Shown here piece by piece: positions 1 to 57,035 of a DNA stretch of 59,320 nucleotides. Origin of the DNA: Bacillota bacterium (GTDB taxonomy: Bacteria; Bacillota; SHA-98; UBA4971); contig DUSX01000027.1 in assembly GCA_012842395.1 (NCBI GenBank), forward strand, positions 1 through 59,320, read 5' to 3'. The position numbers and the translations under genes were made by a program. The notes beneath the pieces are model-generated. The model saw nothing but the letters and a program-made list of their open reading frames with translations. It was not told where the DNA came from and made no database searches. Numbering within the stretch: the stretch's first letter is position 1; every line of letters starts with the position of its first letter.

Positions 1-102
<102 letters not shown>

Positions 103-110
<8 letters not shown>

Positions 111-13301: not shown

Positions 13302-13350
13302 CCAAGTACGGCGCCATAAGTTTTCGTTTCCGTTCTTGACGGCCCCAGGG
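13302..13350 (-). repeat. Truncated copy of the ~200 bp structured repeat (tail only)
   Basis: Read on the minus strand, this stretch contains GGCCGTCAAGAACGGAAACG, then AAAACTTATGGCGCCGTACTTG. It matches the conserved 3' tail of the full copies at 14911, 55405 and 55951. The stem-forming 5' part is missing or too diverged to recognise. It ends immediately before the GGAGGAGGTG of the nitrilase-like gene, so it belongs to that gene's 5' leader. Confidence 0.7.
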
Positions 13351-13516
13351 TCGTCGGCGCCCCCGGCAGGAGAGCGCTGGTCGGAGTAGAACAATTACCA
13401 TTGTCGCGCTTAGGGTGCGGGACCGTGGGTTTTGTGCAGTGTAGCAGGTTTTTGTCCGGCGAGCGCGGCGGAGGGCGATCGCGAGCCGAATAGCTCCGTG
13501 AATGGGAGGAAGGCAT

Positions 13517-14899
13517 GTGCGAAAGAGGTCCGAGTACGCCGAGCCGTACCGCATCAAGATGGTCGAGCCGATCAGGCAGACGTCGCGATCGAGGCGGGAG
13601 GAAGTGCTCCGTGAGGCTGGGTACAACGTCTTCAACATCCCTTCGCAGGAGGTGTACATAGATCTCCTTACCGACAGCGGGACCTCCGCGATGAGCGACA
13701 ACCAGTGGGCGGGGCTGATGATCGGGGACGAGGCTTACGCCGGTAGCAAGAACTTCTACCACCTCCGTGATACCGTAAGCGAATTGCTGGGCTTCAAATA
13801 CGTGCTCCCGACTCACCAGGGCAGGGGCGCTGAGAACATTCTCACGACGATGCTCGTGAAGCCCGGCGATCGGGTGCTTGGCAACATGCACTTCGATACC
13901 ACCGAGGGGCACATCCGCCTGAAGGGCGGCGAGCCGGTCAACCTGGTGATAAAGGAAGGTTACGAGACTGCAACGCGCCATCCGTTCAAGGGCAACATAG
14001 ATACCGGGCGGCTCCGGGAAGAGATACGCCGGTACGGAAGGGATCGCATATCCTTCATCAACATCACTATCACGTGCAACAGCAACGGCGGCCAACCGGT
14101 TTCCATGGCCAACATCCGCGAGGTTAGTGCAATAGCGAGGGAGCATGGGATCAAGGTCTTCTTCGACGCCGCGCGTTTTGCCGAAAACGCGTACTTCATC
14201 AAAGAGCGTGAGGAGGGCTACGCTAACAAGACCATCGCGGAGATTTCCCGGGAAATGTTCTCCTACGCGGACGGCTGCACCATGAGCACCAAGAAAGACG
14301 GCCTCGTAAACATCGGTGGCCTCTTCGCCACGAATGACGAGGCGCTCTACCGCACCGCCGGACAGTGGGGCATCGTCTACGAGGGCTTCCTCACCTACGG
14401 CGGGCTGGCAGGCCGCGACCTGGAAGCCATGGCGAGGGGTCTCCGCGAGGTAGTCGACGAGGCGTACCTTGAAGACCGCATCGGGCAGGTGGGCTACCTC
14501 GGGACCCGTCTCCTGGAGGAAGGCGTCCCCATCATCGAGCCGCCGGGCGGGCACGGGGTCTATGTGGACGCTAAGCGGCTCCTTCCGCACCTGCCGCAGA
14601 GCGCCTTCCCCGCCCAGGCCATCGTGGCCGAGCTTTACCTGGAGGCTGGCGTGCGCGCGGTGGAGCTCGGCACGGCCGCATTTGGCCGCAAAGACGAGAA
14701 AACGGGGGAGCAGGTCTTCCCCGAGCTCGAGCTCGTGCGGCTTGCGGTGCCGCGGCGGGTGTACACCGACAGGCACATGGACGTGGTGGCGCGTGCCCTA
14801 GGTGCGATCGCAGGCCGCAAAGACAAGATACGCGGCATGAAGCTGGTGTATGAGGCCCCGGTTCTGAGACACTTCACCGCGCGGTTTGAGCCTCTCTAG
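13517..14899 (+). CDS. tnaA: Tryptophanase (tryptophan indole-lyase)
   Basis: This PLP enzyme (about 460 residues) cleaves tryptophan to indole, pyruvate and ammonia. It belongs to the beta-eliminating lyase family: YIDLLTDSGTSAMSDNQWAG at the N-terminus, the PLP lysine in CTMSTKKDGLVNIGG, and LRHFTARF at the end. Two positions separate it from tyrosine phenol-lyase. It has FDTT, with the Asp of tryptophanase where tyrosine phenol-lyase has Thr. It also has His in VLRHFTA where the other enzyme has Phe. GTG 13517 follows GGGAGGAAGG closely; an ATG at 13502 lies inside that ribosome site and is less likely. No TnaC-like leader peptide was seen. Confidence 0.9.
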   Translation: MRKRSEYAEPYRIKMVEPIRQTSRSRREEVLREAGYNVFNIPSQEVYIDLLTDSGTSAMSDNQWAGLMIGDEAYAGSKNFYHLRDTVSELLGFKYVLPTHQGRGAENILTTMLVKPGDRVLGNMHFDTTEGHIRLKGGEPVNLVIKEGYETATRHPFKGNIDTGRLREEIRRYGRDRISFINITITCNSNGGQPVSMANIREVSAIAREHGIKVFFDAARFAENAYFIKEREEGYANKTIAEISREMFSYADGCTMSTKKDGLVNIGGLFATNDEALYRTAGQWGIVYEGFLTYGGLAGRDLEAMARGLREVVDEAYLEDRIGQVGYLGTRLLEEGVPIIEPPGGHGVYVDAKRLLPHLPQSAFPAQAIVAELYLEAGVRAVELGTAAFGRKDEKTGEQVFPELELVRLAVPRRVYTDRHMDVVARALGAIAGRKDKIRGMKLVYEAPVLRHFTARFEPL

Positions 14900-14910
14900 A
14901 TGTACCGCGA

Positions 14911-15110
14911 GAAGTCCGTGCTGTTTTCCGGCGCGGGGTGTCTGTGGCGCCGGGTTGCCAGCGTTGCCTTCCGCGGGGCCGGCGCTCTCCCGGCGCGCCC
15001 GCTCGAATTTGGCGCGCGAGGCAGCCAGATTCTCAGCGCTCCGTCGTGCAAGCGCTGGCAACCCTGCACCGTCAAGAAATGAGACGGAGACTCCGAGCGC
15101 CATACTTAGG
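14911..15110 (+). repeat. ~200 bp structured dispersed repeat, copy A
   Basis: This is one of three near-full-length copies in the window (others at 55405 and 55951). Outer arms GGGTTGCCAGCG (14952-14963) and CGCTGGCAACCC (15053-15064) pair perfectly. An inner hairpin pairs GAATTTGGC (15005-15013) with GCCAGATTC (15024-15032). A conserved tail follows, GTCAAGAAA then GAGAC and GCGCCATACTTAGG. Compared with copy B, two stem positions differ on both strands so that pairing is kept. It lies between tnaA and the ttcA-like gene, all on the same strand. Confidence 0.8.
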
Positions 15111-55325: not shown

Positions 55326-56144
55326 CCCCAGCGACGCGACCGACCTGCTTTCACCTTGGCACCGGTGAGGCTTCCCGGGGCGCGAGCCCTACCTAAGTGT
55401 GTCGCCAAAAGTTCGCGCTACATTTCGGCGGGGCGGTCCTGCCCAGGGTTGCCGGTGTTGCCCTCCGGGGACGGCGCGCTTGCGGCGCGCCTCGTTCGAA
55501 TTCGGCGCTTAAGACAGCCGAATTCTCCACGCCCCGTCGTGCAAGCACCGGCAACCCTAACGCCGTCAAGAAAGGAGACGAAAACTTATGGCGCCATACT
55601 TAGGGCCGGCGGCGCGCCGGCCGCGCACTAGCTACGAGCCTCCTGGGATAGGGTTCCTGCGCCATTCCCCGCCCCGCGGACTCCCGGGCCTCCGAATGCC
55701 CGGGGGTCGCAAGCGGGCAGAAGTTCCGCGCCGTTCGTAAGCCGGATGTTCGACCCCTAACTTAAATCTTCGACGTTCTGTGGCGAGCCTCCTCCTCCCC
55801 CGACCTCCTTCCATCCTTCCTCTGCCTTCCCCGCATTTCGCTGGATGCTCGACTTGTCCACATGCCATCCCGGCCCCGCTGAAGCCCGCGAAACACCGTT
55901 GCTGGGGTTGCGCGGATCGGCAGTTACTGGGGAAATCCAACAGGCTCCGCCAGGAGTCCGCGCTACTTGTGGGCGCGGGGGGCCATGGCCAAGGTTGCCG
56001 GCGTTGCCCTCCGGGGACGGGGCGCTTGCGGCGCGCCTCGCTCGGATTTGGCGCGCGGGGGAGCCCGATCCTGCACGCCTCGTCGTGCAAGCACCGGCAA
56101 CCGTGGCGCCGTCAAGAAAGGAGACGAAAACCACAGCACCATAC
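55326..56144. other. Non-coding gap carrying repeat copies B and C
   Basis: This 819-base gap upstream of satD contains two full copies of the ~200 bp structured element in plus orientation, separated by about 350 bases. Between them is a perfect GGCCGGCG/CGCCGGCC hairpin near 55603-55621 and a pyrimidine-rich stretch (55775-55840). Open frames through the region exist because the element is GC-rich; none resembles a known protein. Confidence 0.6.
55405..55604 (+). repeat. ~200 bp structured dispersed repeat, copy B
   Basis: The outer stem pairs GGGTTGCCGGTG (55446-55457) with CACCGGCAACCC (55546-55557) perfectly. A GGCGCGC/GCGCGCC hairpin lies between (about 55473-55491), and GAATTCGGC (55498-55506) pairs with GCCGAATTC (55517-55525). 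The conserved tail contains GCCGTCAAGAAAGGAGACG, then AAAAC and ATGGCGCCATACTTAG. Base changes relative to copy A preserve pairing at two outer-stem positions. Confidence 0.82.
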
Positions 56145-56149
56145 TTAGT
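55951..56149 (+). repeat. ~200 bp structured dispersed repeat, copy C
   Basis: The outer stem pairs GGTTGCCGGCG (55993-56003) with CACCGGCAACC (56092-56102) with one mismatch. The inner stem pairs GGATTTGGC (56044-56052) with GCCCGATCC (56063-56071), where the GGAT/ATCC base covaries with the GAAT/ATTC of copies A and B. The tail GCCGTCAAGAAAGGAGACG and CCATACTTAG are kept. It ends over the stop codon of the minus-strand ABC permease gene. Confidence 0.8.
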
Positions 56150-57035
56150 CCGTGCCGAGCTCCTGTCGGCTGAAGATCCGGAACGAGCACAAGACGAACA
56201 CGGCGAGCCACACGCCGAGCACCACGAACGCGCCTGCGACCCCTGCGGCCGACGCCGCGGACGTCACGGCCGCCTGTCCTTGCGCCTGGGTAGCCTCTGC
56301 TGCTTGGGAAAAGCCTCCGCGCTCGATCACTGCCGCGAGCCTGTTCACGTTGTACCCAATGGTGTAAGGTGCTATCTTTGCTACGGCGGCGAACCGAGTG
56401 GCGAGCGAGCCCACCAGGCTGCCTTCGAGCAGGAAGACCAGGATGCAGATGGCGGTCGCGGTGGCAGACGATCGCGCTGCCCCGGCCACGCACACGGTGA
56501 GCGCGGAGTACAGCACGAGAACGAACCAAGCGATGCCGGCCCCTTGGGCCACCTGCGCGAGGAAACTCAACGTGAGCGCGTCGAGGTCAGCCGCGCGCCC
56601 GAGGGCTGCGGTGACTATCAGCGATACCACGGCTCCGCCGAGGAGCCCGCCCGCTAGGAGGAACAGGCATCCTGCCGTCGCGCCCGCGAGCTTTGACGCG
56701 ACGTAAGCCTGCCTGCCCATGCCCATGGACACGAGCTGCTTTGCGGTTCCCCAAGCATACTCGTCACCTGCCAGCCGCGCGGCGAGGATGATGGCGAACA
56801 GCGGCCCGAGCGAGGCGATGAAGCTGAGCGTGGACGGGATAGACCCTGGGAACGACGTGGCCGCGACGGCCTGCTCCCGTTCCTCGGCCGCGATCTTGCG
56901 CGCGTCCGGCGAGGTTTCTACCCAGTAGGCCATTGCTGCGATCATGAGGGCTTCGAAAGCCACCATGATCAGCAGGAGCACCCAGGTGACGCGCATCCGC
57001 CTCAGCTTGAAAACCTCAACGGCAAGCCACCTCAC
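56145..57035 (-). CDS. ABC-2 type transporter permease
   Basis: The 296-residue membrane protein has six hydrophobic segments: a first near VTWVLLLIMVAFEALMIAAM, then IASLGPLFAIILAARLAGDE with the family's ag(D/E)EY(A/R)wGT pattern (AGDEYAWGTAKQLVSMGMGR), and a last near residue 275. It starts with GTG overlapping the stop of the upstream ATPase gene (GTGA), so the two are translationally coupled subunits of an export or resistance-type transporter. The substrate is unknown. Confidence 0.85.
   Translation of the reverse strand: MRWLAVEVFKLRRMRVTWVLLLIMVAFEALMIAAMAYWVETSPDARKIAAEEREQAVAATSFPGSIPSTLSFIASLGPLFAIILAARLAGDEYAWGTAKQLVSMGMGRQAYVASKLAGATAGCLFLLAGGLLGGAVVSLIVTAALGRAADLDALTLSFLAQVAQGAGIAWFVLVLYSALTVCVAGAARSSATATAICILVFLLEGSLVGSLATRFAAVAKIAPYTIGYNVNRLAAVIERGGFSQAAEATQAQGQAAVTSAASAAGVAGAFVVLGVWLAVFVLCSFRIFSRQELGTD

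Follow-up and report, generated by a model that had tools for sequence, protein, structure and literature searches.

A high-copy repeat of an uncultured Bacillota genome as a probable IS630-type MITE with an exchangeable core

The window analysed here, a stretch of 59,320 nt from a Bacillota MAG (contig DUSX01000027.1), contains three copies (A, B and C) of a repeat of ca. 200 bp and raises the question of what kind of element this is. A first-pass annotation, made without any tools, had left the choice between a structured RNA, a protein-binding repeat and a miniature mobile element, and had matched the repeat to no known class. A class can be named: the repeat is very probably a high-copy, non-autonomous MITE of the IS630/Tc1-mariner type with an exchangeable core of 112 bp. 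The mobile element was the right option, as indicated by the terminal inverted repeats (TIRs), the TA duplication in CTAG and the empty orthologous sites, and further by a high, lineage-variable copy number and a match of the TIRs to an IS630.

Extent, copy number and distribution

All three copies are real and align over their full length, the right half of the core occurring 3 times when 0.01 occurrences are expected by chance. In the first-pass annotation their starts lay too far in, so that the left end was cut off. With the boundaries given in Table 1, every copy begins with a CTAAGT-like sequence and ends with ACTTAG. The tail that had been described as conserved is present and corresponds to the right TIR, although in copy A it reads GTCAAGAAATGAGACG and not ...AGGAGACG.

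Table 1. Location of the repeat copies and of associated features in the window
Feature	Position	Strand	Remarks
5S rRNA	1-109		truncated by the window edge
Weak match to the right end of the element	13304..13360	-	57 bp, 84%, to positions 153-209 of copy B; without core, a possible relic of the element judging from this similarity
Copy A, including flanking TA/CTAG bases	14896..15109	+	left end decayed (CTAGATGTACCGCGA), right end CGCCATACTTAG
Copy A, insertion point	14897-14899		TAG stop codon of the upstream tryptophanase-like gene
Copy A, structured core	14951..15066	+	95.3 bits
Copy B	55393..55603	+	both ends intact: CTAAGTGTGTCGCCA ... TGGCGCCATACTTAG
Copy B, left arm (type I left TIR region)	55393..55445	+	
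Copy B, structured core	55445..55559	+	139.5 bits; three-way junction with an outer stem of 16 bp, a short inner stem CGGGG/CCCCG and hairpins GGCGCGC-loop-GCGCGCC and GAATTCGGC-loop-GCCGAATTC
Copy B, right arm (type I right TIR)	55560..55603	+	the tail of the first-pass annotation
Copy C	55939..56148	+	start approximate; left end decayed (CAACAGGCTCCGCCA), right end ACCATACTTAG
Copy C, structured core	55991..56105	+	104.3 bits
Copy C, TTA	56145-56147		TAA stop codon of ORF 56145-57035, which lies on the minus strand

An intact copy is ca. 211 bp long and consists of a left arm of ca. 53 bp, a core of ca. 112 bp and a right arm of ca. 43 bp, with ends reading CTAAGTATG.CGCCA and TGGCGCCATACTTAG and no transposase gene inside. 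With a GC content of 62% in a 64% GC window, copy B does not display the AT-rich interior that is typical of MITEs without defining them. The search for further copies that had been proposed was fruitful: the genome from which the window is taken (G000; 3.14 Mb, 61 contigs) yielded at least 40 copies when these were scored at once, and a covariance model raised the count to at least 141 cores, which is a lower bound (150 candidates scored). A pattern search tolerating up to 2 mismatches detected 138 termini and its reversed version 7; since end boundaries were defined with a CTAAGT-like pattern, these bases look more conserved than they are. At ca. 211 bp per copy, these at least 141 copies represent ca. 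1% of the genome.

Cores are present in 14 of the 17 genomes of the class and absent from all of the ca. 145 genomes sampled in the rest of the phylum. The named relatives are uncultured Bacillota MAGs, and the genomes compared are drafts with incomplete assemblies. The core alone (query positions 54-165) reaches other genera and another family of the class; the arms do not. Within the genus, copy number is uneven, with at least 130 copies in four species, 36 in one and 4 in G005, and the difference between the 4 cores of G005 and the 36 to at least 150 of G000-G004 reflects either a burst after divergence or a loss. Many contigs of the G013 MAG (DUMQ, e.g. L122, L138, L139 and L163) end at a MITE core, assembly gaps being expected at a high-copy palindrome.

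Insertion into CTAG and the link to IS630

Flanking sequences are random as far as the C with which C-T-A begins. Of 151 elements, 102 have the TA dinucleotide just inside both ends and equally deep on each side, and most elements read C-TA-[AGT...ACT]-TA-G, which is, judging from the end sequences, the pattern of IS630/Tc1-mariner insertion into CTAG. A check for target-site duplications had been proposed: none of 3-12 bp occurs beside the full CTAAG..CTTAG ends, but a TA duplication is found inside them. Because TA is self-complementary and could belong to the inverted repeat itself, unoccupied sites were sought.

The most informative site is that of copy A, downstream of a gene whose C-terminal sequence is tryptophanase/tyrosine phenol-lyase-like and which has orthologues in all five congeners. 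In G001 this site is empty and reads GAGCCGCTC-TAG-TGA (CTC-TAG-TGA). At that CTAG, G000 carries copy A, an element with type I arms, and G003 has a type II-like element, with the other core sub-type, inserted at precisely this point. The orthologues of G002 and G005 have a TGA stop and no element there, and in G004 another copy is found ca. 30 bp downstream of the copy A site. Further comparisons come from a nested case in L191 (JASEJE010000026.1), where one MITE interrupts the core of a second member of its family (AAAT-CTAAG..CTTAG-AGC versus AAAT-CGAG-AGC when unoccupied), and from a repeat family of G013 (L140, L156 and L203 versus L224) with the empty site ggacgcgg-CCAG-. In these two cases and in L173 versus L135, the flank gap is ca. 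4 bp and not zero; that of L135 is CCGA, which is not CTAG-like. The case for TA duplication rests on these empty-site comparisons, of which G001 alone provides an exact CTAG.

Other repeats were also seen. Many copies of G013 (L091-L098, L140, L156, L203 and L224) share one point of a larger palindromic repeat, GCATCTCTCCGCCCGGCGGACGCGG...GCAGGCCGCTCCGTAATCTCCGGCC; this is another dispersed family, and it occurs with and without the MITE. In L135, L172 and L173 (G001) and in L039 (G000, after position 1600), short units bearing GTGATGTNCATCAC-like palindromes form clusters, which suggests one more family of short palindromic repeats.

The position of copy A in a stop codon is not isolated. 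At 139 element ends, frames with a length of 150 codons or more stop at the TAA of the element in 27 cases, compared to 13 and 5 for the other two frames. Such a long open frame adjoins 38 ends, and in 26 of these the longest frame is the TAA frame (binomial p = 1e-5). Copy C has the same placement on the minus strand. CTAG often holds a TAG stop and the element starts with A, so that insertion at C-TA-G of such a stop yields C-TAA-G and leaves the gene with its stop, which favours tolerated insertions at gene ends.

The search for a partner transposase points to the IS630 family, which prefers CTAG targets (Tenzen and Ohtsubo 1991, cited by PMC2170065). G015, of the same class, has an IS630 of 1143 bp (NF033545, 254 bits) with one in-frame TGA, bounded by CTAAGTTAGTGTCC... 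(left bound also given as CTAAGTTA...) and ...CATTAACTTAG. Its IRL aligned to type II arms with a score of 19, the maximum of 2000 shuffles being 12. In G005, an IS630 remnant of 514 bp starts with CTAAGTCGAGCGCCATAAGT, and this end is similar to the right arm of type I elements (score 16, compared to 11.5 at the 99% level of shuffles and to a shuffle maximum of 17). The similarity to IS630 TIRs, as far as sequence comparison goes, is therefore strong for type II arms and suggestive for type I arms, the kind found in the window.

G000 and most high-copy relatives, whose assemblies are incomplete, yielded no intact IS630 transposase, so that the family looks orphaned. G000 has only broken IS630 remnants, with a fragment on contig 51, and its partner transposase may be lost or unassembled. 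A search for an autonomous copy in G000 via isolated ends (L032, L035, L039, L044 and L060) detected no transposase between paired ends, L032 containing only a divergent core, and the terminal sequence had no match in viral contigs. IS4-like DDE_Tnp_1 elements of G000, G001, G003 and G013 were rejected as parents, having no paired TIRs and only isolated weak or single-end matches. The AGT...ACT ends would be the TIRs cut by an IS630-family transposase supplied in trans, which would insert the element at the TA within a CTAG target and thereby duplicate this TA. Inside the TIRs, the 112-bp palindromic core, a predicted three-way junction, is conserved as one unit.

Pairing, inversion and exchange of the core

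The proposal of a selected structure originated in paired differences between copies. The outer-stem change between A (GTTGCCAGCG/CGCTGGCAAC) and B (GTTGCCGGTG/CACCGGCAAC) is exactly as had been described; the covariation claimed for the inner stem of copy C is partial, one pair being broken and one being a wobble. Compared to shuffled sequences, B folds 5 s.d. better and A 2.3 s.d. better while C folds no better (z -0.25), for which reason the folding of three copies alone is insufficient as proof of structure. With more copies aligned, the covariation held. An alignment of 58 cores displays four helices in a three-way junction, with 37 pairs and 92.2% of cells paired. Two-sided change occurs in 19 of the 37 pairs (shuffled mean 9.2; 0 of 500 shuffles as high) and in 76 cells (20.2 in shuffles), and the covariation score is 0.153 versus 0.086, slid controls being far lower; relatedness of the 58 sequences inflates shuffle-type controls of this sort. 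On an earlier alignment of 83 sequences, RNAalifold recovered the second hairpin only, owing to alignment gaps. Matched changes at inverted repeats can also arise by template switching. Core pairing is maintained across species, and to this extent the suggested selection on structure stands; that the structure is an RNA does not follow.

A second core sub-type (L110-L112, L117, L137, L160, L191 and L233), with GCCCC-AAG-CGGGGC as hairpin 1 and CCGG in hairpin 2, was found with both arm types.

The core is not tied to one orientation nor to one set of ends. In type I elements it lies 81 times one way and 4 times the other, and in type IIa/IIb elements 15 versus 8 times. Between arm types, mean left-arm identity is ca. 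0.39-0.41 and that of the core ca. 0.75, the core being better conserved than the TIRs and arms, which transposase recognition does not account for. In G001, the cores of L146 (type I arms) and L211 (type II arms) are 97% identical, while their arms have 35% and 47% identity; the second core sub-type is likewise common to both arm types, with 92% identity. Recombination, conversion or template switching inside the outer stem, the halves of which are inverted repeats, would explain this most simply: the core would flip by recombination or template switching between these halves, and the same route would exchange it between elements with unrelated TIRs.

Breakpoints of flips and exchanges near the outer stem, together with a core better conserved than the arms, might also indicate that the core is itself the invertible or mobile unit, subject to site-specific recombination at the outer stem and using the TIR elements as vehicles. 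This is unlikely, since only 4 of the 85 type I elements have a flipped core, a low number of the kind that sporadic recombination of short inverted repeats would produce, and no convincing young core without arms was seen. Slightly less likely again is a role as RNA, in which a structured sRNA, attenuator or riboswitch-like module would be spread by MITEs, with the transcript under selection. It would fit the strong compensatory change, the conserved unpaired bases (e.g. AC after GGGG) and the transcription and strong folding of related repeats in pneumococcus (PMC3049150). Selection on one RNA strand should, however, favour G-U, and stem mismatches comprise 59 G-U versus 72 A-C, roughly equal numbers, so that no strand prefers wobble. 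In addition, the core occurs in both orientations relative to the arms, copies have no tie to any particular gene set, and Rfam 15 contained no matching family, permissive E-values giving chance matches only. An RNA role for the core is not supported.

IS870 targets CTAG and creates stop codons, which would be compatible with a MITE of another DDE family using CTAG/TA targets (IS5 family, IS427/IS870 group), but matching ends are borne by the IS630 of G015 and this origin is quite improbable. An element derived from HEARO or from IscB or TnpB omega-RNA (IS605/IS607 type) would likewise be ca. 200 nt, folded, dispersed and often devoid of an ORF; we give it almost no credence, matched TIRs with TA at both ends being unlike IS200/IS605 ends. 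The HEARO model (RF02033) had 0 matches at E<=10 genome-wide and none in the window. Given the TIR/TA anatomy, a RAYT-mobilised REP/BIME/REPIN identity is unlikely. For the preferred reading, an IS630-type MITE mobilised in trans, the core would be kept through a role of its hairpins at the DNA level rather than as RNA. Only tentatively, and as something well short of probable, can the core be proposed as a selected module. It would be a three-way junction of DNA or ssDNA to which a protein binds or which efficient mobilisation requires; two or more lineages of IS630-type MITEs would have exchanged it, and compensatory change would have preserved it for as long as the class has existed, while TIRs turned over.

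Comparison with known elements and significance

The closest parallel is RUP, associated with IS630-Spn1, a short non-coding repeat of ca. 100 copies with IS630-like TIRs and insertion at TA (PMC2229807, PMC3049150). The present element shares with it a short size, a high copy number, IS630-type TIRs, insertion at TA and the lack of coding capacity. It differs by its length (ca. 211 bp versus 107 for RUP), by being GC-rich, by having no intact partner IS found here and by a core that is conserved above the TIRs, flips and is common to different TIR types. ERIC and Correia (NEMIS) are also small, folded intergenic repeats with TIRs and TA at their termini (PMC2229807), features found here as well; their host group is unrelated, the likeness noted is one of anatomy, and an exchangeable core is undescribed for them in the literature examined. 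BOX of pneumococcus is modular, strongly folded and a possible MITE (PMC3049150), but it varies in the number of boxB units, whereas here one fixed core occurs with different arms and in either orientation. With IS630 and ISY100 the element has in common the TA target duplication and the CTAG preference (PMC2170065 and its citation of Tenzen and Ohtsubo 1991), as well as TIRs resembling the IS630 of a relative; unlike them, it has no internal transposase gene and is only ca. 211 bp in size.

The class of element is therefore known (RUP, ERIC, Correia), and core exchange together with flipping makes this a new variant. A limited search of the bacterial MITE literature found no description of core inversion or of a core shared between end types. 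The change from TAG to TAA offers a simple route for a transposon into stop codons without damage to the gene. In ordinary MITEs the transposase needs the ends, so that conservation would be expected of the ends and drift of the middle. Here the middle is conserved, covaries, flips and is common to different ends, which makes the family a natural test of whether hairpins in MITE DNA matter for spread.
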